Translations under genes and position numbers: made by a program
Origin: a virus
Length of the DNA stretch: 48,810 bases
Direction: 5' to 3' (one strand)
Virus record (IMG/VR): IMGVR_UViG_3300006920_000068
Span: 1 to 48,810 of that record
Shown: positions 21,734 through 48,398 of the stretch, piece by piece
Position numbering within the stretch: position 1 is the first letter of the stretch
Layout of the letters: each line of letters begins with the position of its first letter
Notes under the pieces: model-generated
Database searches by the model: none
Seen by the model: the letters and a program-made list of their open reading frames with translations, nothing else
Told to the model about the DNA's origin: nothing

Positions 21734-21735
21734 TA

Positions 21736-32801: not shown

Positions 32802-34475
32802 ATGCCCTTAATTGATCTTAAAACAGACCTTAAGTCTCTAACCTATGGAAAGGATCGCCCTGGTGGGGGTAGTAGTAAAGAACCTTTTATTACAGAACCT
32901 ATTCCGGAAGGGGAAACTCCTGGGGCTTCTAACGACTTTCTCCTACGCCAAGGAGCTATCGGAAGAGGAGTTGAAGATGTTTCAAGATTAACTAAATTAC
33001 TTTTTTCTACTACTAAAGGTCTTAACTTTACAACTACTACTAATCTTCTATCTAGAACATCAGTAAAAACAGAAGCAACTACCGGCCCTGCTTACGCTGC
33101 AGGTACCATTAATCAAGGAGTTTATGTTCCCTCTTCTACCCTAGCTCAAGTTGTGGCTGGATTTGGAGGCACTCATTTAAATTTATTAGGCTTGGATCCA
33201 ACTTCTCCCATGGCTGGGATAGTTGAAGGAGGGTTATTCCCTGGAGGGGGTCTTATTAGATATGAACAAGCGGTCCACGACCAAAATAATCAATTAGGAG
33301 ATAGTAGTAATAATAGATTAGTATCTTTATATGATACTAAAATTTTAGGTTCACTATTTCCTAAAAACCCTCTAGTTGCTTCTAGTGACCTTAATATACT
33401 ATCTTATAGTGGGGGGCCGGGATCCACATTAGGTGTAGGTAAGACTATAACTAAAAGAGCAACCTATACTACAGGCAAAAATGAATACGGGTGGACTACT
33501 GGATCTTTTTTAGACAATTCCTTCAACAAAGTATCAGCAGCTCAAACTTATTTTAATACTAATTACTCTTCTAAAGAACAAGAAATTAATACACCTTTAG
33601 GTCCAATTACTTTAAAGGGAATTGAAGCAGGCACATACAATAGTGCTGAAAACTTTCCTAAGGGGGTAGTTAATTCTGGCTCTATTGTAACACTTACTAC
33701 GGCATACAAAAAACCTGATGGAAGCTCTATTGAATACCATCCAAACTCTCCTAATGAGTTAACTAATGACTCTGTCACTAGTTATACCCAACGTTCATAT
33801 CAATCCAACCCAGATTTTATACTTAGAAAGTATGGTAACTTAGCATCTCCTGTAAGTGGGAGTAAACAATATACTTACACAGGGGATAAATTTAGTGCAA
33901 CAAATACCAACTTATTAAATGTTAGTAGTGGGTCAAGCGCAGAAGAACTTGGAGAATCCCAATTATTTAAATTTTATTTAAATCTTCTTAACCCTGATAA
34001 CCCCTCTGATAACGAATACCTTTACTGGCAAGCTTATGTAGACAACTTCTCAGATTCTATAGGAGCCCAATATGATGAATACACTTATACCGGTAGAGGA
34101 TATCCTTCATATAAGTATAAGGGGTTTAGTAGGGCAATAAATTTAGACTTTACAATAGTAGCCGAAAATCCAAATCAAATAATTCCTATTTATGCTAAAT
34201 TAAATAAATTAATACAAAATTTAGCCCCTAACTACAGTAATAGCGGTTATATACGTGGAAATTTTGTTAAATTGACATTTGGAGATTATTTGAATGACGT
34301 ACCCGGAATTGTAACTGGTTTTACATTATCTCCAATATTTGAAGCTGGGTTTGATATAGATAAGGGGAAACAACTCCCAAAATCCATTAAAGTAAGTGGG
34401 TTTAATTTTACTCCAATAACTGATAATAGTAAAGGATTAGTAAGCAGTGATAGCAAATTTATTTCATATCAATAA
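32802..34475 (+). CDS. Baseplate/tail-tube-initiator-like protein
   Basis: A 557-residue protein. The N-terminal ~350 residues are Gly/Ser/Thr-rich and poorly conserved. The C-terminal ~170 residues read YWQAYVDNFSDSIGAQYDEY, TYTGRGYPSYKYKGFSRAI, then IIPIYAKLNKLIQNLAPNYS and FVKLTFGDYLNDVPGIVTGF. This is the pattern of T4-phage tube-initiator and baseplate proteins related to gp48/gp54, which carry a tail-tube-like domain. I infer that it starts tube polymerisation on the baseplate. It overlaps gp53 by one base. Confidence 0.7.
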   Translation: MPLIDLKTDLKSLTYGKDRPGGGSSKEPFITEPIPEGETPGASNDFLLRQGAIGRGVEDVSRLTKLLFSTTKGLNFTTTTNLLSRTSVKTEATTGPAYAAGTINQGVYVPSSTLAQVVAGFGGTHLNLLGLDPTSPMAGIVEGGLFPGGGLIRYEQAVHDQNNQLGDSSNNRLVSLYDTKILGSLFPKNPLVASSDLNILSYSGGPGSTLGVGKTITKRATYTTGKNEYGWTTGSFLDNSFNKVSAAQTYFNTNYSSKEQEINTPLGPITLKGIEAGTYNSAENFPKGVVNSGSIVTLTTAYKKPDGSSIEYHPNSPNELTNDSVTSYTQRSYQSNPDFILRKYGNLASPVSGSKQYTYTGDKFSATNTNLLNVSSGSSAEELGESQLFKFYLNLLNPDNPSDNEYLYWQAYVDNFSDSIGAQYDEYTYTGRGYPSYKYKGFSRAINLDFTIVAENPNQIIPIYAKLNKLIQNLAPNYSNSGYIRGNFVKLTFGDYLNDVPGIVTGFTLSPIFEAGFDIDKGKQLPKSIKVSGFNFTPITDNSKGLVSSDSKFISYQ

Positions 34476-34774
34476 TGAATAGATATAATAATATTCCCAT
34501 ATTTCGTACTCCTGTAGGGAAAAGATATAGAGCTAATGTAAAATATCCTGAAATTCCCTTTAGCGATAATGATTTCTACGTTATAGCCGAAGAAGGGGAT
34601 AGATACGATCTATTAGCTTATCAATACTATGGGGATGTTACTTTATGGTGGGTTATATCATCCGCAAACCCTAGATTCAAACCTAATAGTTTGTACCCTA
34701 CATTGGGCCACCAAATAAGAATACCCTCTAATATTTCTGATATTATAGAGGCATATAAAGTTTTAAATAAATAA
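34475..34774 (+). CDS. 53: Baseplate wedge protein (T4 gp53-like)
   Basis: A 99-residue protein matching the core of gp53: ENDFYVIAEEGDRYD-type segment (here DNDFYVIAEEGDRYDLLAYQ), then YYGDVTLWWVISSANPRF and HQIRIPSNISDIIEAY. This is the LysM-like domain of T4 gp53 (196 residues in T4), so it is a shortened form. gp53 joins wedges into the baseplate ring around the hub. Its ATG overlaps the previous stop. Confidence 0.88.
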   Translation: MNRYNNIPIFRTPVGKRYRANVKYPEIPFSDNDFYVIAEEGDRYDLLAYQYYGDVTLWWVISSANPRFKPNSLYPTLGHQIRIPSNISDIIEAYKVLNK

Positions 34775-34777
34775 ATT

Positions 34778-37225
34778 ATGGGGAAAATTATAGGTGAAAA
34801 TTTCGCTCCTTTTGTAGATAAACAAATAAAAGTTAGACAAGAAAAATTAGGATCTACTACTTACGATAACGAACTTATTTCATATACTACAAGTAAAGAT
34901 AGTTGGTTACGCCTAACATCAGGAGTTAACATAGACCAAACTAGACTTAACAACCTCCCCGGCACCCCCATCGGAAAAGGTGGAATTCCTGAGGGATCTG
35001 GGTTAGCTGAGAGATATGTTTTATTTGGGGGGGCCAATAATACTACAACTTCTTCAAAACCTAAAGGAGGAATTGTAGACAATTATACTGATTCTATATT
35101 AAAAAATGCTTCCTATGGATTTGATTCAACTGCAAATTATGGCTTAACTCCACTCCCAGGTGTTACTTCTTTTAATATTAAACCTAAAAATAATGGTTCT
35201 TTAATAGAAGGAGAAATTAAAATTAAATGCTATAACGTACAACAATTTAATCATATTGAAGCTCTTTACTTGAGATTAGGATATACTTTACTTTTAGAAT
35301 GGGGACACACTATATATTTTAAAAATGATAAATCCCTCGAAAGTGATGTCACCTCGGGTAACCAGGTATATAAAGAGTTTCTTCAAGCTAAAAGTGGAAA
35401 TGATGAAGACCCTCAAACTTACATACAAAATAAAATAAAACAAACTAGATCAGATTCCTCAGGTAACTATGATGGTATGTTAGGTAGAGTGCTCAATTAT
35501 AATTGGGAAGTTACTCCTGAAGGGGAATATAATATAACTGTAAAAGTTCTTTCCCCAGGAGATATTATAGAATCTCTTTCTATATCTACAAATCTACCCG
35601 GTGACAAACGTTCAGAACCCGATTCCCCTTCTTCGGGAATAGAAAATAAAATTGAATCAACAACTATAGGAAGAATATTGGGAGACTTTAAAAAACGTCT
35701 TGATGGTGTCTCTATTTTTTCAAGCGATGATTCCCCTCTTGGAGAACTTAAAACTGAAAATTTGGGCGTATATAGTGGTATTGTTGTTCCAACCCCACGT
35801 AAGGCATCTTATTTTAATTCTAACCTTACCAATGACTCTATAAAATTAAGTGCCAACCTAGAAGATTTAAATCCCTACAAAGATGAAATTATTTCTCCCC
35901 CTTCATCTCAACCCCTTAAAGAATTAATAAAACTTGAAGGAGAAAACTCAGACGAAGCTTTTTATTATATTAAATTTGGGGCGTTATTAAGGATAATTCA
36001 AAATTTTCTTCTATTATATAATACTACCGAAAATTCTACTCCTATAATAGGTATAAATTGGGAATATGATGAAAATCAATGCTTTATCCCCCTTGAAGAT
36101 TTATTTTCATCAGATCCTCGTACTTGCTTAATACCCTCTAGATTTAAAACCGGAGTAGTAGAATTTTCTCTTGAAGGTTCCGATGAATTAGGATTTGAAA
36201 ATACTTTTGATTTCAAAAAAATTAACCAGATTTTAGGATCAGATTTTTTAACTAGTAAAGATAAAAAAAATGATAAATTTACTTATAATTTTATGCATAT
36301 TCATTTAAATATAGATTTAATTTTTAATATACTTGATAAAAACATAAACAGCGCAGGAAACTTAGCTTTAATTGACTTTCTACTAGCTTTGTGCACCCAA
36401 ATAAATTCATCTTTATCTAATGCAACCGAATTAACCCCATTCCATGATACCGATGATAATATTTTATATATAGTTAATAAAAGAAACTCGAATAACATTT
36501 TACCTGATTCTGAAAAGGAAGCTTCAAAATTCCAAATAGGATTTTATAATAGTGGGCAAGGAAACATAACAGGTATTCAAAAGGGTAGTTTTGTAAAAAA
36601 TATTTCTATAAACTCAACAATCCCTCCTAATTTTGCAACCCAAATAGCAATAGGGGCTCAAGCTAACAACACTAGCGTAGACCAAAATTCCTTTTCTTTT
36701 TCAAATTGGAATAGGGGATACACAGACAGAATAGTTTTAGATAAAAAAACTTCTGCTGAATCAACAACAGCAAAAGAAGAACAAATTAGGCAGGATAGAA
36801 GATTAAAATATGCTGAAACTGTAAAAAGTACAGAAATAGCAGTTATGCTTAATAGTACCTTTAGTTATAGTGCGAATCTTTACAAACTTTCTACAGCCAT
36901 AAATAAATACTTTGAAATACGATCTTCTGAAAATATAAAAAAGGATAATTCTTTAACATCTCCCGTTTTAATTCCTATTTCATTATCTCTTACTATGGAT
37001 GGTCTTTCTGGAATGAAAATTTTTCAAAAATACACTATCACAGATGAATTTCTCCCCCAAAGTTATAGGGATAATATAGAATTTATTATTAAAGGCATAA
37101 ACCATACCATAGATGGTTCAGGATGGATTACTAATGTTGAAGGGCAGTTTATGCCCAAAGCTAGACTAAGTGAACCTATTACAGAGGATAATCCCCTCTT
37201 TACGGGCCCCCAAAATCAGTTTTAA
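34778..37225 (+). CDS. Baseplate hub-like structural protein
   Basis: An 815-residue protein. Residues about 125-190 hold PLPGVTSFNIKPKNNGSLIE and HIEALYLRLGYTLLLEWGHT, a phrase common in large baseplate proteins of Bacteroidota phages. The C-terminal ~120 residues (VLIPISLSLTMDGLSGMKIF, DNIEFIIKGINHTIDGSGW, ITNVEGQFMPKA) resemble the end of hub proteins related to gp27/gpD. Its position after gp53 supports a baseplate role. The exact T4 counterpart is not certain, and no lysozyme domain is visible. Confidence 0.65.
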   Translation: MGKIIGENFAPFVDKQIKVRQEKLGSTTYDNELISYTTSKDSWLRLTSGVNIDQTRLNNLPGTPIGKGGIPEGSGLAERYVLFGGANNTTTSSKPKGGIVDNYTDSILKNASYGFDSTANYGLTPLPGVTSFNIKPKNNGSLIEGEIKIKCYNVQQFNHIEALYLRLGYTLLLEWGHTIYFKNDKSLESDVTSGNQVYKEFLQAKSGNDEDPQTYIQNKIKQTRSDSSGNYDGMLGRVLNYNWEVTPEGEYNITVKVLSPGDIIESLSISTNLPGDKRSEPDSPSSGIENKIESTTIGRILGDFKKRLDGVSIFSSDDSPLGELKTENLGVYSGIVVPTPRKASYFNSNLTNDSIKLSANLEDLNPYKDEIISPPSSQPLKELIKLEGENSDEAFYYIKFGALLRIIQNFLLLYNTTENSTPIIGINWEYDENQCFIPLEDLFSSDPRTCLIPSRFKTGVVEFSLEGSDELGFENTFDFKKINQILGSDFLTSKDKKNDKFTYNFMHIHLNIDLIFNILDKNINSAGNLALIDFLLALCTQINSSLSNATELTPFHDTDDNILYIVNKRNSNNILPDSEKEASKFQIGFYNSGQGNITGIQKGSFVKNISINSTIPPNFATQIAIGAQANNTSVDQNSFSFSNWNRGYTDRIVLDKKTSAESTTAKEEQIRQDRRLKYAETVKSTEIAVMLNSTFSYSANLYKLSTAINKYFEIRSSENIKKDNSLTSPVLIPISLSLTMDGLSGMKIFQKYTITDEFLPQSYRDNIEFIIKGINHTIDGSGWITNVEGQFMPKARLSEPITEDNPLFTGPQNQF

Positions 37226-37229
37226 TTAA

Positions 37230-37238
37230 TATTTATCA
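37230..37238 (+). promoter_or_regulatory. TATTTATCA motif
   Basis: Two bases before the ATG at 37241 and just after the previous stop. Confidence 0.45.
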
Positions 37239-37240
37239 AT

Positions 37241-37837
37241 ATGCCCTATGTTCCCAAAAGTAGAATTCAAACTAATCTGTATACTGCGGGAAAGAACTAT
37301 GTAATCAAAGGAACAACCCAACCTTACATTGGGTACTACTACAAAACATATAAGGGCCAATTATTTACAGGAAAAAATCCTGATAATAAACCCAATAGAC
37401 TCCTAATCCCAATTCCTGAACCAGTACAAGCTAACCAAACTCAAGTCTATATTAAAGACAATGTTGAAAATGAAAATTATAAACTCTTAAGAGGAATCTC
37501 AGGAAATAATTTACGAAATTCCCCCCAACTATTCTTTACACAACCCACTGAACAGGATTACCAACTTGGTGAATTTAGAAGATTTTTTTGTAAAAGTAGA
37601 AATGAATTTATTTATTTAGAAACTTCCGAATCTGACTATAACGCATTAGTTCAAAATAGTCCAACTATAGATTTCCAAAACTGGGTACCTTTTAATATAC
37701 CTTGGACATTAACAGGAGATGAAAATCAAGTATATCGTACAAATCATAGTATAGTAAAATTAAAAGAAAAAAATGAAGGTTTTTATGGATTAGGAAAATA
37801 TCTTCAAGAGAAATATTTAAGGTACTATAAACCTTGA
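37241..37837 (+). CDS. Hypothetical virion protein upstream of the giant fibre
   Basis: A 198-residue protein starting MPYVPKSRIQTNLYTAGKNY, rich in Tyr, Asn and Gln, with YIGYYYKTYKGQLFTGKNPD and a C-terminal GLGKYLQEKYLRYYKP. The Tyr/Pro-rich extended style is common in baseplate-attached virion proteins of such phages. No family assigned. It may connect the giant fibre to the baseplate, by position only. Confidence 0.65.
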   Translation: MPYVPKSRIQTNLYTAGKNYVIKGTTQPYIGYYYKTYKGQLFTGKNPDNKPNRLLIPIPEPVQANQTQVYIKDNVENENYKLLRGISGNNLRNSPQLFFTQPTEQDYQLGEFRRFFCKSRNEFIYLETSESDYNALVQNSPTIDFQNWVPFNIPWTLTGDENQVYRTNHSIVKLKEKNEGFYGLGKYLQEKYLRYYKP

Positions 37838-37864: not shown

Positions 37865-40800
37865 ATGGCACAAAAATTTATTATAGATAGAGATTTAGGA
37901 GCATTTTGTATACCTTACAAGGTTTCAACTCCCTCTACAATCCCCTCCCCTGGTAGATTAAGTCTTTATAGTAGTTTAGATGTTAGAAATACAACTCGTG
38001 TTGATATTAACATATCGGACCTTAATAATATTAACATATCGGATTACCTAAAAGATAGTACTAAAGGTAATTTAACAATACACAGTAAAAAATATCCTGC
38101 TAACTACGCAGTTTTTCCTTACACAGCTGTAACGGATAATACTAATTATATATCTTTTACAATAACTGCAGGAGCTAGTGCTCAATCTGGTAATTTTCCA
38201 TTAAATGCTGAGGAAGAAGTTTGTATTGTATTAGATTATAATGACGGAACAGGAGGAGGAGGAAGCGGCTCATCAGGTACATCAGGATCATCGGGTGCCG
38301 AAGGCTCCTCAGGTACTTCAGGTACTTCAGGCACTTCGGGTTCATCTGGTGAAGATGGTGACATATATGCCGATTGTAGCACTCAAACCATTACCGATCC
38401 CCCTGGAGACCCCCTTAATATAAACATAGCCGCAGGACTAGCATATACAGTAGGTCAAACTGTAATACTAGCATATAGTGCCACACAGTATATAGTAGGA
38501 ATAGTTAATTCATATAACTCATCAAATGGGGATATAGAAATCGATATTACTTCCCAAACAGGGAATTGGCCTACCCCTACTTCTCTACAATGGTGTATAA
38601 ACCTAGAGGGAGCTCCAGGAGCAGCAGGATCATCAGGCACTTCAGGCACTTCAGGATCATCGGGTTCATCGGGTACTAGCGGTTCATCAGGTATGACAGG
38701 TGCTTCAGGTACATCCGGTTCTTCAGGTACTTCAGGTAGTTCGGGCACATCTGGCTCCTCAGGCTCATCTGGCACCTCAGGCTCATCGGGCACTTCAGGT
38801 ATATCGGGTTCATCGGGTACTTCAGGTTCATCTGGTACTTCAGGTTCTTCAGGTTCTTCAGGTACCTCAGGCATAGACGGTTCCTCAGGCACTTCAGGTT
38901 CTTCAGGTTCTTCAGGCACATCAGGTTCATCAGGTACTTCAGGTTCATCTGGAATATCAGGTTCATCAGGTACTTCAGGTACATCTGGAGAATCAGGCTC
39001 ATCAGGTACTTCAGGTTCTTCAGGTATGACAGGTGCCTCAGGTACCTCGGGTTCATCAGGCTCATCAGGTTCGTCAGGTACCTCAGGTTCCTCAGGTTCC
39101 TCAGGCACCTCAGGTATAGATGGTTCCTCAGGTACTAGTGGTTCTTCGGGTACTTCAGGTATAGATGGCTCTTCAGGTACCTCAGGTTCTTCAGGTACTA
39201 GTGGTTCTTCAGGCTCATCAGGTACATCAGGTACATCCGGCTCATCAGGCACTTCAGGTTTTTCAGGCTCCTCAGGCACCTCAGGTAGCTCAGGCACATC
39301 GGGATCATCAGGCATCAGTGGCTCTTCAGGTACTAGTGGCTCATCAGGCACATCAGGTACTAGTGGTTCATCAGGCACTTCAGGTACTAGTGGTTCATCA
39401 GGTATTAGTGGTTCATCAGGCACTTCAGGTTCATCGGGCACTTCAGGCATAGATGGCTCTTCAGGTACTGCAGGTTCATCAGGTACTTCAGGTTCTTCGG
39501 GTATGACGGGTGCATCAGGTACTTCAGGCTCTTCAGGTACTAGCGGTTCGGCAGGTACTAGTGGTTCTTCAGGCACATCAGGTTCTTCAGGCACCTCAGG
39601 TTCATCAGGATCGTCGGGTACCTCAGGTATAGACGGTTCTTCGGGTACTTCAGGTACTTCAGGCTCTTCAGGTACTAGCGGTTCTGCAGGTACTAGTGGT
39701 TCTTCAGGCACTAGTGGTTCTTCAGGTACATCAGGTTCATCAGGTACTTCAGGCTCATCAGGCATTAGTGGTTCATCAGGTACCTCTGGTACATCAGGCT
39801 CTTCAGGTGCCTCAGGTTCTTCAGGTACTAGTGGTTCTTCAGGAACCTCAGGCACCTCCGGCTCTTCAGGATCATCAGGTACCTCAGGTATAGATGGTTC
39901 TTCAGGTACCTCAGGTTCTTCAGGTACTAGTGGTTCTTCAGGTACCTCAGGCACCGCCGGCTCTTCAGGATCATCAGGCACCTCAGGTTCCTCAGGAATG
40001 ACGGGGGCTTCGGGCACATCAGGTTCATCAGGTACTTCGGGTATCGATGGTTCATCTGGCACTTCAGGATCTTCGGGTACCTCAGGTTCTTCCGGCACCT
40101 CTGGGATAAATGGCTCTTCAGGAACTTCAGGCACTTCGGGTTCATCTGGCACTTCAGGTTCTTCAGGTACATCGGGTATTAGTGGTTCCTCAGGTACATC
40201 AGGTACTAGTGGTTCCTCAGGCACTAGTGGTATCTCGGGTTCCTCAGGTACTAGTGGCTCTTCAGGTACTAGTGGCTCTTCAGGTACTAGTGGTTCTTCC
40301 GGCACTAGTGGTTCTTCAGGTACTAGTGGCTCTTCAGGCACATCAGGCTCATCTGGTTCCTCAGGTACAGCTGGCTCATCAGGTACTTCAGGTTCCTCAG
40401 GCACATCAGGTTCTTCAGGTATGACAGGTGCCTCAGGAACATCAGGTTCTTCAGGTACATCAGGTTCTTCAGGTACTAGTGGTTCTTCGGGTACTTCGGG
40501 TTCATCAGGTGAGGATGGTGACATATACGCCAATTGTAGTACCCAATCCCTCACTTCCCCCGCTTCGGGTACCCTTAATCTTGTTATAGGAATTGGATTA
40601 GCTTATACAACGGGACAAAGTATAATATTGGCTACCCCAGGTAATGTTAATAACCTAATTGAAGGAACGGTTGGGTCCTATAATTCGGGAACAGGGGGCA
40701 TTAGTATTATAGTTACCTCTTCTACAGGGACTTTTAGTGGTTCTCAACAATGGTGTATAAACCTAGCGGGAGCCCCCGGAGCATCAGGTTCTTCGGGTAC

Positions 40801-43800
40801 ATCGGGTATCTCAGGTTCTTCAGGAACATCAGGTATCTCAGGTTCATCAGGCACTTCAGGTGCTGCAGGTTCATCAGGTACTTCAGGCATAAGTGGTTCT
40901 TCAGGCACATCAGGTTCTTCAGGTATGACAGGTGCCTCAGGTACTTCAGGTTCTTCAGGCACATCAGGTATTAGTGGTTCCTCAGGCACCTCAGGTTCAT
41001 CAGGTTCATCAGGCACCTCAGGCACCTCAGGCGCCATAGGTATTAGTGGCTCCTCAGGTACTTCGGGTACATCAGGCTCTTCAGGTACTAGTGGTTCATC
41101 AGGTATGACAGGGGCCTCAGGCACATCAGGTTCATCAGGTACTTCAGGCAGCTCAGGTTCTTCAGGCACCTCAGGTGTTTCAGGTTCTTCAGGAACTTCA
41201 GGTAGTTCAGGCATTTCAGGCTCATCAGGTTCCTCAGGTACTAGTGGTTCCTCAGGTTCATCAGGTACTTCAGGCTCATCAGGCATTAGTGGTTCATCAG
41301 GTACCTCTGGTACATCAGGTTCATCGGGTACATCGGGTACTTCAGGTTCATCAGGTACTAGTGGTTCTGCAGGCACCAGTGGTTCATCAGGTATTAGTGG
41401 CTCTTCAGGCACCTCCGGTTCATCAGGTATGACAGGTGCTTCGGGTACATCAGGCTCCTCAGGTATTTCGGGCTCATCGGGAACTTCAGGTACATCAGGC
41501 TCATCGGGTATTTCAGGCTCCTCAGGTACTTCGGGTACATCAGGTTCTTCAGGTACTAGTGGTTCTTCAGGTACATCAGGTTCATCGGGTACTTCAGGCT
41601 CATCAGGTATTAGTGGTTCATCAGGTACCTCTGGTACATCAGGTTCATCGGGTACTTCAGGCTCATCAGGTACTAGTGGTTCATCAGGTACTAGTGGTTC
41701 ATCAGGTACTTCAGGTACTAGTGGCTCCTCAGGTTTTAGCGGTTCATCAGGTACTTCAGGTTCTTCAGGCACTTCAGGCACTTCAGGCTCTTCAGGTGTT
41801 AGCGGTTCATCAGGTACTAGTGGTTCATCAGGTATGACTGGAGCCTCAGGTACTTCTGGTTCTTCGGGTACTAGTGGTTCCTCGGGTACATCAGGAGCTA
41901 CAGGGGATAGTGGTTCTTCAGGCACATCAGGCTCATCGGGTACTTCAGGCTCCTCAGGCACTTCAGGTATAGATGGTTCTTCAGGCACTAGTGGTTCTTC
42001 AGGTACATCAGGTTCGTCAGGTACTTCAGGGGCTACAGGTGAGGATGGCTCATCAGGCACATCAGGTTCATCAGGTACGTCAGGTTCATCAGGCACCTCA
42101 GGAGCTACAGGTGAAAGTGGCTCTTCAGGAACTTCAGGTTCCTCGGGTATAACAGGTGCTTCAGGTACTTCAGGTTCTTCAGGTACTTCAGGTTCTTCAG
42201 GCACCAGTGGCTCTTCAGGCATTAGTGGTTCTTCAGGCACATCAGGAGCTACAGGTGAAAGTGGCTCTTCAGGTACCTCAGGTTCCTCAGGTATGACAGG
42301 TGTCTCAGGCACATCAGGTTCTTCAGGCACTTCAGGTTCCTCAGGTACTAGTGGTTCTTCAGGTACTTCAGGTATAGATGGTTCTTCAGGTACAAGTGGT
42401 TCATCAGGTACTTCAGGTATAGACGGCTCTTCAGGCACCTCAGGTTCATCGGGTACATCAGGTTCATCAGGTACATCAGGTACTTCGGGTTCTTCAGGTA
42501 TTAGTGGTTCTTCAGGCACTTCGGGTTCATCAGGTATGACAGGAGCCTCAGGCACTTCAGGTTCTTCAGGTACATCAGGTACTGCAGGTTCATCAGGTAC
42601 TTCAGGTATATCGGGTTCATCAGGTACATCAGGTTCTTCAGGTATGACTGGAGCTTCAGGTACATCAGGTTCTTCAGGTACTAGTGGTTCATCAGGCACA
42701 TCAGGCTCATCAGGCACTTCAGGTATAGATGGTTCTTCAGGCACTTCAGGCACTTCAGGTTCTTCAGGAGCTGCTGGAGCGGATGGTGATGTATACGCGG
42801 ATTGTGCAAATCAAACTATTACTAGTGGTACCCCTCCACCATCACTTACTTTAACTTTTGCTACTGATTTAGCTTATACCGCAGGACAGAATGTAATATT
42901 AGCACATAGTGCTACCCAATTTATTGAAGGAACAGTAGATAGTTATACTCCCAATTCAGGGGTAATAGTATTAATTAATTTAACTTACACGGGAACATTC
43001 TCAGGTACTATAGAATGGTGTTTAAACTTAGCAGGAGCCCCAGGGGCATCGGGTTCATCAGGAACCTCTGGTACATCAGGCTCATCAGGCACTTCAGGTA
43101 TAGATGGTTCATCGGGCACCTCAGGTTCTTCAGGTACATCAGGCTCTTCAGGTACTAGTGGTTCATCCGGTACTTCAGGTATAAATGGTTCATCAGGTAC
43201 CTCAGGTTCTTCAGGTACATCAGGCTCTTCAGGTATATCTGGTTCTTCAGGTACATCAGGTACATCAGGTATATCGGGTTCATCAGGTACATCAGGTTCT
43301 TCAGGTATGACTGGAGCTTCAGGCACATCAGGTTCTTCAGGTACATCAGGTTCTTCAGGCACCAGTGGCTCCTCAGGTACTAGTGGTTCTTCAGGTACAT
43401 CAGGTACATCAGGTGTATCAGGTTCCTCAGGTACCTCAGGCTCTTCAGGAACATCAGGTATAGATGGTTCTTCGGGTACTTCAGGTGCTGCAGGTTCATC
43501 AGTTACTTCAGGCATAAGTGGTTCTTCAGGCACATCAGGTTCTTCAGGTATGACAGGAGCCTCAGGAACATCAGGTTCTTCAGGTACATCAGGTTCTTCA
43601 GGCACTTCGGGTTCATCAGGTACTAGTGGTTCTTCAGGCACCAGTGGTTCTTCAGGTACATCAGGTACATCAGGTTTATCAGGTTCCTCAGGTACCTCAG
43701 GCTCTTCAGGTATGACAGGAGCTTCAGGTACTTCAGGTTCCTCAGGTACTTCAGGTTCCTCAGGTACTAGTGGTTCTTCAGGTACTTCAGGTATAGATGG

Positions 43801-46800
43801 TTCTTCAGGTACAAGTGGTTCATCAGGTACTTCAGGTATAGACGGCTCTTCAGGTACTTCAGGTTCATCGGGTACATCAGGTTCATCAGGAGCAACAGGT
43901 GAAAGTGGCTCATCAGGCACCTCAGGCTCTTCAGGTACTAGTGGTTCTTCAGGCACTTCGGGTTCATCAGGTATGACAGGAGCCTCAGGAACATCAGGTT
44001 CTTCAGGTACATCAGGTACTGCAGGTTCATCAGGTTCTTCAGGTACTAGTGGTTCTTCAGGCACTAGTGGCTCTTCAGGTACCTCAGGAGCTACAGGTGG
44101 AAGTGGCTCTTCAGGTACCTCAGGTTCCTCGGGTATGGCAGGTGCTTCAGGTACTTCAGGTTCATCAGGTACATCAGGTTCTTCAGGCACCAGTGGTTCT
44201 TCGGGTACTTCAGGTATTAATGGTTCATCAGGTACTAGCGGTTCTTCGGGTACTAGTGGTTCTTCAGGTACTTCAGGTTCTTCAGGTACCGGTGGTTCTT
44301 CTGGCACCTCAGGTATTGATGGTTCTTCAGGCACTTCAGGTTCATCAGGCACCTCAGGCTCTTCAGGTATGACCGGAGCTTCGGGTACTTCAGGTTCTTC
44401 AGGCACTAGTGGTTCTTCAGGTACTAGTGGTTCCTCAGGTTCATCGGGTATTTCAGGTACTTCAGGTTCATCAGGTACTTCAGGTTCATCAGGCACATCG
44501 GGTTCCTCTGGCACATCGGGCACTTCAGGCACTTCAGGTTCTTCAGGTATGACAGGTGCCTCAGGTACTTCAGGTTCTTCAGGCACTTCAGGTATAGACG
44601 GTTCATCAGGTACTTCAGGCACTTCAGGCACTTCGGGTTCATCAGGCACTTCAGGTTCTTCAGGCACTTCAGGTTCATCAGGTATGACAGGTGCTTCAGG
44701 CACATCCGGCTCATCGGGTACCTCAGGCTCCTCAGGCACTTCAGGTATAGATGGCTCTTCAGGTACTAGTGGTTCTTCAGGCACATCAGGCTCATCAGGT
44801 ACCTCAGGCTCATCAGGTGCTTCAGGAACCGATGGAGATATCTATGCTGCATGTGTTAATAACCTTACAATTTCAAACCCTCCTTCATCCCCTCTTACTA
44901 TTGCTATAGGATCCGGATTAGCTTATACTGCGGGGCAGAACATAATATTAGCAATTGATTCCTCTAATTTTATTGAGGGTACCGTAAACAATTATAACTC
45001 AGGAACTGGAAATATTGAAATTAATGTTACTTCTTCCACAGGGTCTTGGTCTTCAATTACCTCTTATACATGGTGTATAAACCTAGCAGGAGCCCCAGGA
45101 GCATCAGGTTCTTCAGGTACATCAGGTTCTTCAGGCACTTCAGGTACTTCAGGTATAGATGGTTCATCGGGCACCTCAGGTTCTTCAGGTACTTCAGGCT
45201 CTTCAGGCTCTTCAGGTACTTCGGGTTCTTCAGGTATGACAGGGGCTTCAGGTACTTCAGGTTCTTCAGGTACTAGTGGTTCCTCAGGTACATCAGGCTC
45301 ATCAGGCACTTCAGGTTCTTCAGGAACAAGTGGTTTATCAGGCACCAGTGGTTCATCGGGTACTTCAGGGATTGCAGGTATAGACGGCTCTTCAGGCACA
45401 TCCGGTTCATCAGGTATGACAGGCGCCTCAGGTACTTCAGGCTCTTCGGGTACTAGTGGCTCTTCAGGTTCTAGCGGCACCTCAGGAACAAGTGGTTCCT
45501 CAGGTACTTCAGGTTCATCAGGTACATCAGGTATAGACGGTTCATCGGGTACCTCAGGTTCATCAGGTACATCAGGTATAGACGGTTCATCAGGTACAAG
45601 TGGCTCATCAGGTACCTCAGGTATAGATGGTTCATCAGGTACAAGTGGTTCATCAGGTACTTCAGGTATAGATGGTTCTTCAGGTACAAGTGGTTCATCA
45701 GGTACATCAGGTATAGATGGTTCTTCAGGTACTTCAGGTTCTTCAGGCACTTCAGGTATAGATGGTTCTTCAGGTACAAGTGGTTCATCAGGTACTTCAG
45801 GTATAGACGGTACTTCAGGTTCATCAGGTTCATCAGGCACAGACGGTTCATCGGGTACTTCAGGTTCTTCAGGTACTTCAGGCATAGACGGTTCTTCAGG
45901 TACAAGTGGTTCATCAGGTACTTCAGGTATAGACGGTTCTTCAGGTACTTCAGGTTCATCAGGTACATCAGGTATAGATGGTTCTTCAGGCACAAGTGGT
46001 TCATCAGGTACTTCAGGTATAGACGGTTCTTCAGGTACAAGTGGTTCATCGGGTACCTCAGGTATAGATGGTTCATCGGGTACTTCAGGTTCATCAGGCA
46101 CTTCAGGTATAGATGGTTCTTCGGGTACAAGTGGTTCATCAGGTACTTCGGGTATAAGTGGTTCATCAGGTACAAGTGGTTCCTCAGGCACCTCAGGCTC
46201 TTCAGGCACTTCTGGCTCCTCAGGTATGACAGGTGCTTCAGGCACATCAGGTTCATCAGGTACTTCAGGTTCTTCAGGTACTAGTGGCTCATCAGGTACC
46301 TCAGGCTCTTCAGGTACTTCAGGTATTAGTGGTTCCTCAGGCACTTCAGGTTCTTCAGGTACTTCAGGCTCTTCAGGTATGACGGGAGCTTCGGGTACAT
46401 CTGGTTCTTCAGGCACATCAGGTTCTTCAGGTACTAGTGGTTCATCAGGCACATCAGGCTCATCAGGTACTTCAGGTACATCAATCACAGAAAATTGGTC
46501 TATATTAGATAGTGTACCTGCAGGATCCGTGGGTAACCCAGGAACTGATATTTTTAATACGGGGCTTAGCTTTGGCACATTCGATGTAGTTGAATTTGAT
46601 GGAATGGTTATATTAAAAGGAAATAATAGCGGAACAGGAACCGTTGCTGACCCCTTCATCAGAGCAGGTGCTACATTGAAATTTACAGGTACCCTTTGGG
46701 CATTTTTAAGTAAAAACTATCTATATGATTTTACTATTACTGAAGTAGATGGAACATTCGTTTCACAAAGTGTAACTACTGAAATTGCTCAAACCCAATT

Positions 46801-47215
46801 AATAAGTATAGTAGCCACAGACCCCGGAAATAAGACCCAAGGGTCCTATGGTCCTGTTGGTATTACAGGAGGAGGAACAGGAGCACAAGCCACAGTTGTA
46901 ATAGGAAATACAGGACTTGCTACTTCAATAATAGTAACAGATGGGGGAAGTGGATATTCAACAGCAACAGCAATCACAATTGATGGGGCCGATATAGGAG
47001 GAATAACATCTACCGATGATGTAGTGTTAAACCTTACGATCCCATACTTAGTTCCTGAATACACTAAATCCAGACTAAACTTGGAACAAATATACATTCA
47101 AGCAGAGGATGTTGATGTTACAAACAACATTCTAAGATTTAAAGTATACAATACTCTTGATTATAGCTTATTCTACAAGCATTCATTAACATTTAGAATT
47201 TTTAACGATTTGTAA
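37865..47215 (+). CDS. Giant collagen-like (Gly-X-Y) fibre protein with four repeated globular domains
   Basis: A 3116-residue protein. Residues 1-130 are a beta-rich N-terminal domain (MAQKFIIDRDLGAFCIPYKV). Next come a short Gly-X-Y stub, then four ~87-residue globular domains starting at residues about 162, 882, 1638 and 2321, each followed by a long Gly-X-Y block of 633, 669, 597 and 465 residues. The triplets are mostly GSS and GTS, with scattered GID, GMT, GAS, GIS and GES. Proline occurs only as the single GAP triplet at the start of each block. Residues 2874-3116 are a non-repetitive C-terminal region with a GGSGYSTATAITIDG motif. The reading frame is intact across 9.35 kb with a single Gly interruption (Val1880). 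Likely a very long trimeric fibre; triple-helix formation is inferred from the Gly period. Confidence 0.88.
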   Translation: MAQKFIIDRDLGAFCIPYKVSTPSTIPSPGRLSLYSSLDVRNTTRVDINISDLNNINISDYLKDSTKGNLTIHSKKYPANYAVFPYTAVTDNTNYISFTITAGASAQSGNFPLNAEEEVCIVLDYNDGTGGGGSGSSGTSGSSGAEGSSGTSGTSGTSGSSGEDGDIYADCSTQTITDPPGDPLNINIAAGLAYTVGQTVILAYSATQYIVGIVNSYNSSNGDIEIDITSQTGNWPTPTSLQWCINLEGAPGAAGSSGTSGTSGSSGSSGTSGSSGMTGASGTSGSSGTSGSSGTSGSSGSSGTSGSSGTSGISGSSGTSGSSGTSGSSGSSGTSGIDGSSGTSGSSGSSGTSGSSGTSGSSGISGSSGTSGTSGESGSSGTSGSSGMTGASGTSGSSGSSGSSGTSGSSGSSGTSGIDGSSGTSGSSGTSGIDGSSGTSGSSGTSGSSGSSGTSGTSGSSGTSGFSGSSGTSGSSGTSGSSGISGSSGTSGSSGTSGTSGSSGTSGTSGSSGISGSSGTSGSSGTSGIDGSSGTAGSSGTSGSSGMTGASGTSGSSGTSGSAGTSGSSGTSGSSGTSGSSGSSGTSGIDGSSGTSGTSGSSGTSGSAGTSGSSGTSGSSGTSGSSGTSGSSGISGSSGTSGTSGSSGASGSSGTSGSSGTSGTSGSSGSSGTSGIDGSSGTSGSSGTSGSSGTSGTAGSSGSSGTSGSSGMTGASGTSGSSGTSGIDGSSGTSGSSGTSGSSGTSGINGSSGTSGTSGSSGTSGSSGTSGISGSSGTSGTSGSSGTSGISGSSGTSGSSGTSGSSGTSGSSGTSGSSGTSGSSGTSGSSGSSGTAGSSGTSGSSGTSGSSGMTGASGTSGSSGTSGSSGTSGSSGTSGSSGEDGDIYANCSTQSLTSPASGTLNLVIGIGLAYTTGQSIILATPGNVNNLIEGTVGSYNSGTGGISIIVTSSTGTFSGSQQWCINLAGAPGASGSSGTSGISGSSGTSGISGSSGTSGAAGSSGTSGISGSSGTSGSSGMTGASGTSGSSGTSGISGSSGTSGSSGSSGTSGTSGAIGISGSSGTSGTSGSSGTSGSSGMTGASGTSGSSGTSGSSGSSGTSGVSGSSGTSGSSGISGSSGSSGTSGSSGSSGTSGSSGISGSSGTSGTSGSSGTSGTSGSSGTSGSAGTSGSSGISGSSGTSGSSGMTGASGTSGSSGISGSSGTSGTSGSSGISGSSGTSGTSGSSGTSGSSGTSGSSGTSGSSGISGSSGTSGTSGSSGTSGSSGTSGSSGTSGSSGTSGTSGSSGFSGSSGTSGSSGTSGTSGSSGVSGSSGTSGSSGMTGASGTSGSSGTSGSSGTSGATGDSGSSGTSGSSGTSGSSGTSGIDGSSGTSGSSGTSGSSGTSGATGEDGSSGTSGSSGTSGSSGTSGATGESGSSGTSGSSGITGASGTSGSSGTSGSSGTSGSSGISGSSGTSGATGESGSSGTSGSSGMTGVSGTSGSSGTSGSSGTSGSSGTSGIDGSSGTSGSSGTSGIDGSSGTSGSSGTSGSSGTSGTSGSSGISGSSGTSGSSGMTGASGTSGSSGTSGTAGSSGTSGISGSSGTSGSSGMTGASGTSGSSGTSGSSGTSGSSGTSGIDGSSGTSGTSGSSGAAGADGDVYADCANQTITSGTPPPSLTLTFATDLAYTAGQNVILAHSATQFIEGTVDSYTPNSGVIVLINLTYTGTFSGTIEWCLNLAGAPGASGSSGTSGTSGSSGTSGIDGSSGTSGSSGTSGSSGTSGSSGTSGINGSSGTSGSSGTSGSSGISGSSGTSGTSGISGSSGTSGSSGMTGASGTSGSSGTSGSSGTSGSSGTSGSSGTSGTSGVSGSSGTSGSSGTSGIDGSSGTSGAAGSSVTSGISGSSGTSGSSGMTGASGTSGSSGTSGSSGTSGSSGTSGSSGTSGSSGTSGTSGLSGSSGTSGSSGMTGASGTSGSSGTSGSSGTSGSSGTSGIDGSSGTSGSSGTSGIDGSSGTSGSSGTSGSSGATGESGSSGTSGSSGTSGSSGTSGSSGMTGASGTSGSSGTSGTAGSSGSSGTSGSSGTSGSSGTSGATGGSGSSGTSGSSGMAGASGTSGSSGTSGSSGTSGSSGTSGINGSSGTSGSSGTSGSSGTSGSSGTGGSSGTSGIDGSSGTSGSSGTSGSSGMTGASGTSGSSGTSGSSGTSGSSGSSGISGTSGSSGTSGSSGTSGSSGTSGTSGTSGSSGMTGASGTSGSSGTSGIDGSSGTSGTSGTSGSSGTSGSSGTSGSSGMTGASGTSGSSGTSGSSGTSGIDGSSGTSGSSGTSGSSGTSGSSGASGTDGDIYAACVNNLTISNPPSSPLTIAIGSGLAYTAGQNIILAIDSSNFIEGTVNNYNSGTGNIEINVTSSTGSWSSITSYTWCINLAGAPGASGSSGTSGSSGTSGTSGIDGSSGTSGSSGTSGSSGSSGTSGSSGMTGASGTSGSSGTSGSSGTSGSSGTSGSSGTSGLSGTSGSSGTSGIAGIDGSSGTSGSSGMTGASGTSGSSGTSGSSGSSGTSGTSGSSGTSGSSGTSGIDGSSGTSGSSGTSGIDGSSGTSGSSGTSGIDGSSGTSGSSGTSGIDGSSGTSGSSGTSGIDGSSGTSGSSGTSGIDGSSGTSGSSGTSGIDGTSGSSGSSGTDGSSGTSGSSGTSGIDGSSGTSGSSGTSGIDGSSGTSGSSGTSGIDGSSGTSGSSGTSGIDGSSGTSGSSGTSGIDGSSGTSGSSGTSGIDGSSGTSGSSGTSGISGSSGTSGSSGTSGSSGTSGSSGMTGASGTSGSSGTSGSSGTSGSSGTSGSSGTSGISGSSGTSGSSGTSGSSGMTGASGTSGSSGTSGSSGTSGSSGTSGSSGTSGTSITENWSILDSVPAGSVGNPGTDIFNTGLSFGTFDVVEFDGMVILKGNNSGTGTVADPFIRAGATLKFTGTLWAFLSKNYLYDFTITEVDGTFVSQSVTTEIAQTQLISIVATDPGNKTQGSYGPVGITGGGTGAQATVVIGNTGLATSIIVTDGGSGYSTATAITIDGADIGGITSTDDVVLNLTIPYLVPEYTKSRLNLEQIYIQAEDVDVTNNILRFKVYNTLDYSLFYKHSLTFRIFNDL
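38348..38608 (+). repeat. Interspersed globular domain, copy 1
   Basis: Encodes the domain beginning GEDGDIYADCSTQTI and ending LQWCINLE; contains the AGLAYTVGQTVILAYSATQY core and two Cys. Confidence 0.9.
38609..40507 (+). repeat. Gly-X-Y block A (633 residues)
   Basis: 211 consecutive triplets, dominated by GSS and GTS, opening with GAPGAA. GMTGAS phrases recur at irregular intervals. Confidence 0.92.
40508..40768 (+). repeat. Interspersed globular domain, copy 2
   Basis: Begins GEDGDIYANCSTQSL; core GIGLAYTTGQSIILATPGN; ends QQWCINLA. Confidence 0.9.
40769..42775 (+). repeat. Gly-X-Y block B (669 residues)
   Basis: 223 triplets. This block carries most of the GATGES/GATGED/GATGDS phrases, so it differs a little in composition from block A. 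Confidence 0.92.
42776..43033 (+). repeat. Interspersed globular domain, copy 3
   Basis: Begins GADGDVYADCANQTI; core ATDLAYTAGQNVILAHSATQF; ends IEWCLNLA. It is the most diverged in its second half. Confidence 0.9.
43034..44824 (+). repeat. Gly-X-Y block C (597 residues)
   Basis: 199 triplets, containing the only Gly-position substitution seen (GTT, Val1880, at 43502-43504) and one GTG GSS phrase. Confidence 0.92.
44825..45088 (+). repeat. Interspersed globular domain, copy 4
   Basis: Begins GTDGDIYAACVNNLTI; core GSGLAYTAGQNIILAIDSSNF; ends YTWCINLA. Confidence 0.9.
45089..46483 (+). repeat. Gly-X-Y block D (465 residues)
   Basis: 155 triplets; its middle third is the regular GID array at 45530-46150. 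Confidence 0.92.
45530..46150 (+). repeat. 45-base tandem array encoding GIDGSSGTSGSSGTS
   Basis: About 13 units of 15 residues in 621 bases, interrupted once (GIDGTSGSSGSSGTD). Units vary mainly at third codon positions. This is the most regular part of the gene and may be its youngest expansion. Confidence 0.9.
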
Positions 47216-47225
47216 TAATTAAAAA

Positions 47226-47948
47226 ATGAATACATTTAATCAACAAATCATAACATTTGAAGATGAATTTTTTAATGTAGAATTTCCTGTAATTCCTATT
47301 CAATATAATATTCAATATAACTTAGCAGCAGATGATAATGTTTGGTGGGGATGTTCTACCACTTTTGGAGGTGTTTCTATTTTAGAAAAGGCAAATAGTA
47401 ACTGGGATGGAGGGATCTTTACAGGAAACATATTAAGTTCTATTACTACTAATACAACAGATGCAACCATCAATCTTTTTCAATACACCATACCCACTCT
47501 ACCCGGAGAAGATGGTGGTGGGGCTAAAATTACTACTCAACAAACTGCGGGTGTGATCACTTATGCTTTTATAAATGATGGAGGAGTAGGATATGAAGAT
47601 GGAGACACTTTAACCCTACCATCATCTGCTCTTGGAAGTACTACAGATGCTATTATAACTTTAACATCCAATAATCTCCCAACGGAAATACCTCCCTCTA
47701 CAGGAAACATATACCTTACTGCTACAGATAATGGAACGGGTCCTGCTCTTGTTACTGTAGAATTTACCCAAGATGATTACGAAGCTAGTGGAGGCCCCTT
47801 AGAAACAGGCGAAACTTATTATTGGGAATTGATTGCAGGTGAAACCTTAAATTATAGTGCTATCTACAATGTACCTACCCAAGTAATAGCTCAAGGTACT
47901 TTACAAGTAAGACCCTCAATTTTTAGTGCTGAAGGATATAGACCCTAA
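47226..47948 (+). CDS. Virion-like protein, longer member of a tandem paralogous pair
   Basis: A 240-residue protein sharing with its downstream neighbour FNQxxIxFEDxxF at the start, WWGCS-x-x-x-GGVS-x-LEK (residues 40-55), VEFTQDDYEASGG (178-190) and SIF-x-x-x-GYRP at the end. Between residues about 61 and 175 it has an extra segment with INDGGVGYEDGDTLTLP, a 'GG-x-GY' beta domain like that in the C-terminus of the giant fibre. No named family. It lies ten bases after the giant gene and is probably part of the same fibre or adhesin assembly. Confidence 0.7.
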   Translation: MNTFNQQIITFEDEFFNVEFPVIPIQYNIQYNLAADDNVWWGCSTTFGGVSILEKANSNWDGGIFTGNILSSITTNTTDATINLFQYTIPTLPGEDGGGAKITTQQTAGVITYAFINDGGVGYEDGDTLTLPSSALGSTTDAIITLTSNNLPTEIPPSTGNIYLTATDNGTGPALVTVEFTQDDYEASGGPLETGETYYWELIAGETLNYSAIYNVPTQVIAQGTLQVRPSIFSAEGYRP

Positions 47949-47957
47949 TCATTACAA

Positions 47958-47966
47958 TATTTATTA
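47958..47966 (+). promoter_or_regulatory. TATTTATTA motif
   Basis: 21 bases before the ATG at 47988. Confidence 0.45.
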
Positions 47967-47987
47967 ATATAATATAAAAAATAAAAA

Positions 47988-48398
47988 ATGGCATCTTTTA
48001 ATCAAGACTTTATAAAATTTGAAGACGATACTTTTCTTTTACTATATACTTTCACAGATTTAACTTCCAACTTTGATACTAACTGGGATGCATGGTGGGG
48101 GTGTTCTTTAACTGAAGGAGGAGTATCAGTATTAGAGAAATGCACAAGTGTATGGGTACCAGGTATGCCTTCTTCACCCTTCCAAGTTGTTATCCCCAAC
48201 GGAGGAACTCAAATCCAAGTATTTTTTACCCAAGCGGATTTTGTAAATAGTGGTGGAGTCCTAACAGAAAACGTAACATATTATACCGAATTAGTAGTTA
48301 GTCCTACGGGTGATGAAGATACAAGTTTAGTAGCAGCCGTAGGGACCTTCATACCTAAGAAATCAATATTTACTTCTGATGGGTACAGACCAATATAA
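47988..48398 (+). CDS. Virion-like protein, shorter member of the tandem pair
   Basis: A 136-residue paralogue of the preceding gene without the GG-x-GY insertion: SFNQDFIKFEDDTFLLLY at the start, AWWGCSLTEGGVSVLEKCTS in the middle, VFFTQADFVNSGG and SIFTSDGYRPI at the end. It probably represents the basal form of this fold. Its stop overlaps the next start by one base. Confidence 0.7.
   Translation: MASFNQDFIKFEDDTFLLLYTFTDLTSNFDTNWDAWWGCSLTEGGVSVLEKCTSVWVPGMPSSPFQVVIPNGGTQIQVFFTQADFVNSGGVLTENVTYYTELVVSPTGDEDTSLVAAVGTFIPKKSIFTSDGYRPI

Follow-up and report, generated by a model that had tools for sequence, protein, structure and literature searches.

A giant, almost proline-free collagen-like fibre gene of an environmental contractile-tail phage and its putative GT4-TibC-type companion enzyme

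The analyzed stretch of DNA (the window) comprises 48,810 nucleotides of the IMG/VR virus record IMGVR_UViG_3300006920_000068. Upstream of a very long collagen-like fibre gene lie genes for terminase, portal, protease and major capsid protein, as well as those for sheath, tube, hub and baseplate wedge, which precede the fibre in this order. Because sheath, tube, hub and wedge genes are all present, the window belongs to a contractile-tail phage, whose tail module includes the fibre gene. According to the ORF list and its translation, the fibre gene is one intact plus-strand frame. The two genes between the wedge gene and the fibre gave no PHROG or Pfam match. The window ends 1.6 kb 3' of the fibre; in G002, a sister contig of the same phage, the fibre is followed by proteins of 240 aa, 136 aa and 725 aa and then by a 767-aa glycosyltransferase. 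All features are listed in Table 1.

Table 1. Features of the fibre locus, in window coordinates.
Feature	Coordinates	Strand	Evidence
Baseplate wedge gene plus the two genes between it and the fibre	34475..37837	+	Wedge = 34475-34774, phrog_7145
Giant collagen-like fibre gene, 3116 aa	37865..47215	+	ORF; PF01391; equal length in three further contigs
N-terminal domain (aa 1-121), presumed baseplate anchor	37865..38227	+	Kept in relatives with different repeats
Gly-X-Y prelude, 12 triplets	38258..38365	+	Triplet count
Knob domain 1	38366..38608	+	Alignment; predicted small all-beta, barrel-like, pLDDT 87
Gly-X-Y block 1, 213 triplets	38609..40525	+	Triplet count
Knob domain 2	40526..40768	+	Knob alignment
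Gly-X-Y block 2, 225 triplets	40769..42793	+	Triplet count
Knob domain 3	42794..43033	+	Knob alignment
Gly-X-Y block 3, 201 triplets, Gly-to-Val break at codon 1880 (43502-43504)	43034..44842	+	Triplet count
Knob domain 4	44843..45088	+	Knob alignment
Gly-X-Y block 4, 155 triplets, with 45/135-base tandem array	45089..46483	+	Triplet count
C-terminal domain (aa 2874-3116, 243 residues), presumed distal tip	46484..47212	+	Partial PHROG matches
Two small genes 3' of the fibre	47226..48398	+	ORF list

The initial annotation described a single 3116-residue frame of almost Pro-free GSS/GTS blocks with one GAP proline in each, and the triplet counts bore this out. The prelude and the four blocks together hold 805 Gly-X-Y triplets (block 3 consists of 52 and 148 triplets plus one broken triplet, which lies outside the 805), and GSS (323) and GTS (314) dominate among them. 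Serine occupies 326 and threonine 322 of the X positions, serine fills 708 of the Y positions, and Ser and Thr together make up 86% of all X/Y positions. Only four of the 1610 X/Y positions are proline, each within the GAP that opens a long block, and none is lysine or arginine. The fibre thus has neither the Pro/Hyp nor the charged pairs that stabilize collagen-like proteins. As the collagen family PF01391 matched it with 998.2 bits against a cut-off of 27.2, the protein belongs among the collagen-like proteins and the Gly-X-Y repeat is not a chance pattern. A GMT-GAS marker recurs along the fibre (23 GMT triplets), and GID at every fifth triplet gives rise to the tandem array in block 4. Long antisense ORFs overlie every block.

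Each of the four blocks is preceded by one of four homologous domains of about 85 residues (knobs), and the later knobs are 52-58% identical to the first. The initial annotation did not describe these domains. No close solved relative of the knob was found by Foldseek with the predicted model (best E 0.026) or by a sequence profile search; the best VIA match of the model was a JBD30 baseplate chain (Z 7.2, rmsd 3.8, 80 aligned residues). The knob model also matched those of proteins from environmental phages that bear the name collagen repeat or tail fibre. This recurrence and the location behind the baseplate genes of a contractile-tail phage support the earlier assignment as a phage fibre. 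The model of the N-terminal domain is of low confidence (pLDDT 62). Part of the C-terminal domain matched connector and baseplate-wedge PHROGs (E 3.5e-8 and 7.7e-8), and in a close-relative search this domain occurred in only four contigs, 99% identical.

The full fibre gene is present at the same length in contigs from samples 3300025543, 3300025570 and 3300007231, which differ from the window by 8, 8 and 14 substitutions, respectively, and by no indels; the first two have identical eight differences and may not be independent samples. Two further contigs of the window phage break inside the gene. Codon 1880 reads GTT (Val) in the window only, and all four other contigs that cover it read GGT (Gly). 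In the three complete sister genes, Gly opens each of the 794 triplets of the four blocks. When 24-residue stretches with identical protein sequence were paired (3943 pairs), codon positions 1 and 2 agreed at 96% and third positions at 62%, where independent codon choice would be expected to give 38-54% third-position agreement for Thr, Ser and Gly. Synonymous sites between repeats are thus scrambled, and therefore the protein pattern itself is selected. Most of the repeat copies are old and maintained as protein sequence; recent tandem copying is seen in the last block only.

Such fibres are not restricted to this phage. The N-terminal domain is common to seven other contigs at 55-60% identity (57-61% in the six relatives that were aligned); all seven run into Ser/Thr-rich Gly-X-Y of other composition (GTD/GTS, GSS/GTS, GDD/GSS), and all are cut at the contig end within the fibre. 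The knob was found in at least 75 loci, many with hundreds of Ser/Thr triplets and almost no Pro; the fibre of locus L042 is even longer than that of the window (at least 3883 residues, 960 triplets). Other Gly-X-Y types among the relatives are GPT-rich, GAT/GQT, Gln/Thr/Ile-rich or Pro-rich. The Ser/Thr-rich, Pro-poor composition is a recurrent type among related environmental phages, so the unusual composition seen at first is real, but its apparent singularity had to be rejected by the homologue search. Among named phages, tblastn with the N- and C-terminal domains, the knob and a repeat block gave no match, though the low-complexity filter may mask the repeat block.

The nearest sheath among named phages, 55% identical, is that of Flavobacterium phage immuto, whose complete genome contains neither a collagen repeat nor a TIGR04414 match; its one PF00534 match above cut-off lies far from the tail genes. 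Contig G002 encodes a TonB-plug protein and another protein whose C-terminal domain is of the type IX secretion kind. As type IX secretion is, to our knowledge, confined to Bacteroidota, a Bacteroidota host is likely. The gene would encode a very long structural fibre of a contractile-tail phage, probably one of Bacteroidota. The O-glycosylation sequon of Bacteroidota is D-S/T-x. This motif occurs only twice in the fibre, both times outside the repeats; thus the general O-glycosylation system of the host is an unlikely source of sugars. No GT2 family match above cut-off was obtained in eight contigs.

A candidate enzyme lies close by. In three sister contigs (L006, L104 and L105), a gene fusing a GT4 and a TibC-type half is located 3.7 kb from the fibre stop, beyond the end of the window. 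The N-terminal half is GT4 (PF00534 above cut-off). The C-terminal half belongs to TIGR04414, the autotransporter O-heptosyltransferase family Aah/TibC, with 257.7 bits against a cut-off of 200, and scored 26.1 bits with LPS heptosyltransferase I. A profile of 14 homologues aligned with solved TibC (4rb4/4rap) at 7e-64, profile positions 402-757 covering TibC residues 22-385 of 406. TibC position 110 (the catalytic Asp, Ala in the D110A crystal) aligns with phage Asp490, and TibC Thr226, Lys230 and Trp305 align with phage Thr606, Lys610 and Trp684; all four phage residues are invariant in the 14 homologues. The remaining one, TibC Arg286, is not conserved and aligns with Val. The roles of catalytic Asp110 and the sugar-binding residues are those given in the available part of the TibC report (PMC4358343). 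The same text states that TibC modifies Ser, not Thr, of a repeat-rich fibre and that TibC cysteine mutants lose activity.

The window phage enzyme lacks the iron-finger cysteines (Cys339/342/358/370 of TibC), and this counts against a glycosylating role. These cysteines are absent in 6/14 homologues (the window phage clade and L113) and intact in 8/14, as well as in 10/11 phage homologues of a second alignment. Despite the missing iron finger, the TibC half is under purifying selection, with dN/dS of about 0.14-0.17 against two relatives (dN 0.14-0.18, dS about 1.0). No membrane-like stretch was found in the enzyme, which fits a cytoplasmic location. It is a member of the protein-serine O-heptosyltransferase family fused to GT4, with a putative transferase activity.

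We then compared the enzyme with fibre composition in 55 contigs of at least 20 kb, found via the knob or the N-terminal domain regardless of the enzyme. TIGR04414 was searched in 47 of them first and in the remaining eight afterwards (four more window-phage contigs, the near-duplicates L027, L080 and L094, and L038); these eight all fall into existing clusters and gave two matches (L021 and L027), both Ser/Thr-rich. Contigs were classed by the Ser+Thr content of their Gly-X-Y. At a cut of 0.7, which was picked after the compositions were known, the enzyme occurred in 17/25 Ser/Thr-rich versus 1/22 other contigs of the 47 (p = 1e-5); at a cut of 0.8 it occurred in 14/22 versus 4/25 (p = 0.001). 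For all 55 contigs the values were 19/30 versus 1/25 and 16/27 versus 4/28, respectively. When contigs were grouped by similar DNA with repeats masked, 21 clusters resulted, and the enzyme was found in 9/9 Ser/Thr-rich versus 0/12 other clusters at 0.7 (p = 3.4e-6, with 47 or 55 contigs alike) and in 8/8 versus 1/13 at 0.8 on the 47 (p = 4e-5). The contig-level counts are less clean than the cluster counts. Three loci selected via the enzyme (L118, L127, L130) were also searched for TIGR04414 and left out of all counts. An earlier test with the general GT4 family PF00534 and hand-assigned composition classes (18/26 versus 4/21, p = 0.001) was replaced by TIGR04414.

Median contig sizes of the two classes were 60 and 44 kb. 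Among the enzyme-less contigs of the other class are some as long as 190, 96 and 87 kb. Sheath genes were present in seven of nine Ser/Thr-rich clusters versus one of the 12 others. Since the sheath is absent in 11/12 other versus 2/9 Ser/Thr-rich clusters, phage type confounds the comparison. Within the sheath-less stratum, the enzyme was found in 2/2 Ser/Thr-rich clusters versus 0/11 others (p = 0.013).

The association was also examined in reverse. A pattern search for the TibC-half family in environmental viral contigs yielded at least 596 confirmed stretches. Among the matches listed, 80 loci were taken, 26 of which had flanks of at least 8 kb on the upstream and 5 kb on the downstream side. 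Within 10 kb, 18 of these 26 listed loci had Ser/Thr-rich Gly-X-Y, 5 had other Gly-X-Y only and 3 had none; all 80 listed loci, the 54 short-flanked ones included, gave 28, 10 and 42. The set includes the window phage and L312, and counts the near-duplicates L316/L317/L325 and L341/L343/L344 separately. A sheath-anchored comparison set from the same phage clade (27 loci of at least 15 kb) gave 6 Ser/Thr-rich, 9 other only and 12 none, a control weakened by contigs breaking in repeats; neither this set nor the reverse set was collapsed for relatedness. Taken together, the forward and reverse counts make the enzyme a companion of collagen-like fibres, mostly but not exclusively of the Ser/Thr type.

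Two sister phages, G056 and G069, with tail sheaths 61-63% identical to that of the window phage, carry Pro-rich collagen genes in the fibre module, followed by genes for a protein of about 775 aa, a 2OG-oxygenase-like protein, two similar small proteins, the GT4-TibC gene and the sheath. G056 also has a Ser-rich Gly-X-Y frame of 61 triplets. L118, similar in order, encodes a large protein in which GT4 and GT25 domains are joined by a 2OG match that is weak and below cut-off; its second gene exceeds the PF13640 cut-off, and there is an additional FkbM methyltransferase gene. Judged by gene content, these arrangements look like hydroxylation plus glycosylation of a Pro-rich collagen. No PF13640 prolyl hydroxylase was found in four contigs of the window phage, none of which is known to be complete. 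A TibC-type gene without PF13640 is what would be expected for a fibre that offers almost no Pro and no Lys for hydroxylation. The contrast is no more than suggestive, because some Ser/Thr-rich contigs (L057, L060, L062, L070, L074, L088 and L091) also hold the hydroxylase. A rule that the hydroxylase occurs only with Pro-rich fibres was thus unsupported (PF13640 in 10/50 records).

The fibre sequence, its conservation, the enzyme family and the co-occurrence are established here directly. On balance, we think it probable that the gene encodes a trimeric fibre attached to the baseplate, with a Ser-rich shaft that the phage's own enzyme O-glycosylates. From the sequence we infer the location on the virion, the trimer, the glycosylation and the triple helix. 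The N-terminal domain would tie the fibre to the baseplate region and the C-terminal domain would form the tip. Three chains would pair via the terminal domains and the four beta-barrel-like knobs, with the Gly-X-Y blocks as extended collagen-like shafts in between. Glycosylation is proposed because the GSS/GTS triplets come without the usual triple-helix stabilizers. The GT4-TibC-type enzyme would modify shaft serines in the cytoplasm, ahead of assembly, and the sugars would supply the stiffness, solubility and protease protection given elsewhere by (hydroxy)proline or charge pairs. The enzyme relative near Ser/Thr-rich fibres suggests sugars in place of the proline of ordinary collagen. The initial suggestion that such a chain may need Ser/Thr glycosylation is strongly, if indirectly, supported by the TibC-family gene that lies downstream and co-occurs with Ser/Thr-rich fibres. 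The calculated length of 0.7 micrometre holds as arithmetic (0.69 um at 0.286 nm per residue) but does not show that the fibre is extended. Only slightly less probable than not is a widespread class of phage "glyco-collagens", in which Pro-free Gly-Ser/Thr-Ser shafts, densely O-glycosylated on Ser by a phage-borne TibC-family enzyme in exchange for hydroxyproline chemistry, would form stiff fibres of several hundred nm on environmental phages.

Alternatively, an unmodified triple helix may be stable enough in cool water, and the enzyme may act on another virion protein or, for superinfection exclusion, on the host surface. Fibre-module glycosyltransferases of pelagimyophages are published as modifying the host O-chain, according to the available part of that report (PMC7029224). 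Moreover, the nearest neighbour of the enzyme gene is not the fibre but the 725-aa protein, which has no assigned family. Among the ten loci of a glycosyltransferase search for which 10 kb upstream were present, four (L113, L122, L126 and L133, the last holding the GT4 half only) had no Gly-X-Y gene in that interval. Nevertheless, we consider this alternative unlikely, as the C-terminal half scores far higher with the protein-serine transferase family than with LPS heptosyltransferase I, and the enzyme tracks the Ser/Thr content of the fibre across clusters.

A different fold of the blocks, such as a polyglycine-II-like bundle or another glycine-driven structure, appears rather improbable. Small X/Y residues fit polyglycine II packing, as in phage S16 gp38 and the snow flea antifreeze protein, and the blocks contain no Hyp chemistry or charge pairs. 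However, helices in polyglycine II bundles are short, whereas the blocks here run up to 225 triplets without turn-like breaks, and the sister phages G056 and G069 have Pro-rich collagen genes in their fibre modules. To a similarly low degree we credit disordered bristles, bare or sugar-coated, that serve as flexible spacers between knobs. The blocks are Ser/Gly-rich and of low complexity, and relatives with the same N-terminal domain have other repeat compositions, but disorder needs no period, whereas the Gly in each third position persists here despite synonymous scrambling and the sole Gly break is private to one contig. An assembly artefact, which the initial annotation had named as a refutation, or an untranslated frame under the long antisense ORFs has a negligible chance, since the gene has an identical length in three other contigs, the variability falls on third positions of the fibre frame and the homologous knobs are in frame.

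The O-glycosylated fibre proposed above would explain, in a way open to testing, how a collagen-like fibre could do without proline. It also provides fibre-module glycosyltransferases of environmental phages, hitherto read as host-modifying, with a likely substrate. By tblastn, the TibC half was present in only 4 of 50,697 named phage records. Set against the at least 596 environmental stretches, which were found by a different method, this indicates that fibre glycosylation may be a common phage trait missed by cultivation. Among the four, Microcystis phage Mel-JY01 has a 199-triplet Ser/Thr-rich Gly-X-Y frame at the record start, one structural gene and a GT4-TibC fusion. In a 735-kb uncultured phage (two records), 35 Ser/Thr triplets lie within 7 kb, and a 636-kb phage has none within 20 kb. 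As Mel-JY01 is a named phage with a recorded host and has both fibre and enzyme, a direct test looks possible.

Cytoplasmic GT4 glycosylation of Ser-rich repeat adhesins is known from GtfA, which is not a phage enzyme and whose substrates have no Gly-X-Y period. TibC/AAH acts on TibA/AIDA-I; it and the phage enzyme both fall into the protein-serine O-glycosyltransferase family, and the TibC/AAH substrate is a repeat-rich surface fibre in the accessible text of PMC4358343. The catalytic Asp and three of four sugar-binding residues align, as detailed above. Unlike TibC/AAH, the phage enzyme is fused to GT4 and, in the window clade, lacks the iron finger; its presumed substrate is a Gly-X-Y fibre instead of an autotransporter beta helix. 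Judging by titles and abstract beginnings in the open-licence literature, we found no description of a TibC-family enzyme paired with a phage collagen. What appears to be new here is the GT4-TibC gene downstream of the fibre and its co-occurrence with Ser/Thr-rich fibres.

Among bacterial collagens, those of the BclA type are collagen-like and reported to be glycosylated, which is thought to help hydration; Gram-positive collagens have about 31% Pro in X and 48% Thr in Y, unlike the window fibre (both from the available part of PMC8968730). The known viral collagens contain Pro, charged residues, Gln and Thr, as far as the accessible portion of PMC3368898 describes them. In that portion, the E. 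coli prophage fibres EPclA-D resemble the present fibre as phage tail proteins in which globular domains flank the Gly-X-Y shafts, and the authors report trimers; recombinant EPclA was reportedly not glycosylated. EPclA-D have Pro in close to half of the X positions, many charged residues and a longest named Col domain of 322 residues (PMC3368898, same portion). In contrast, the 2415 repeat residues of the window fibre include almost no Pro and no Lys/Arg, and the fibre has four repeated knobs.

Codon choice within the Gly-X-Y repeats of the collagen-like fibre gene (window 38609-46483) was unlike that elsewhere: at the Y position, TCA supplied 70% of all codons for Ser or Thr, while GGT accounted for 69% of the Gly codons, compared with 36% in nine other window genes. 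Each Gly-X-Y block was overlain by an antisense ORF of 531-699 codons. In the Microcystis phage Mel-JY01 (PP395634), the Ser/Thr-rich frame is covered by annotated reverse-strand hypothetical proteins (1-651 and 739-2298), an annotation that is probably on the wrong strand. A second proline-free Gly-X-Y class, high in Gln, Thr and Ile, was found in the related phages L218 and L219, with Gln at about 0.47 of the X/Y residues.

Coordinates of antisense ORFs and additional proteins
Feature	Location	Strand	Remark
Antisense ORF	window 38455-40554	-	over Gly-X-Y block
Antisense ORF	window 40744-42753	-	over Gly-X-Y block
Antisense ORF	window 42985-44784	-	over Gly-X-Y block
Antisense ORF	window 45064-46659	-	over Gly-X-Y block
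673-aa protein, five DUF285 stretches	window 21730-23751		366 bits; inside structural module
798-aa protein, YadA head repeat	window 16576-18972		whole-protein score above Pfam cut-off
CHU_C type IX secretion C-terminal domain protein	L100:15759-17255		phage contig
TonB-plug, carboxypeptidase-regulatory-like protein	L100:11960-14503		phage contig

Six phage contigs (L216, L217, L118, L127, L128 and L119) contained a gene cassette within the fibre module, located after the Pro-rich collagen genes wherever the contig extends there. In L118, the cassette comprises a protein combining GT4 and GT25 domains plus a weak 2OG match, a 2OG oxygenase, similar small proteins, an FkbM methyltransferase, and then the fused glycosyltransferase GT4-TibC; gene order in the other five resembled it by eye. 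This cassette looks like a phage system for collagen hydroxylation and glycosylation.

The phage contig L100 encodes CHU_C and TonB-plug proteins, as if its phage exported protein via host machinery. Look-alikes of GroEL and GroES were also noticed by eye near these genes.

In the TibC-type enzyme of the window clade (L101:13020-15320 and homologues), all four iron-finger cysteines were lost, while the catalytic residues were kept and purifying selection persists. This enzyme, still selected with its cysteines gone, offers a natural test of the iron finger's purpose.
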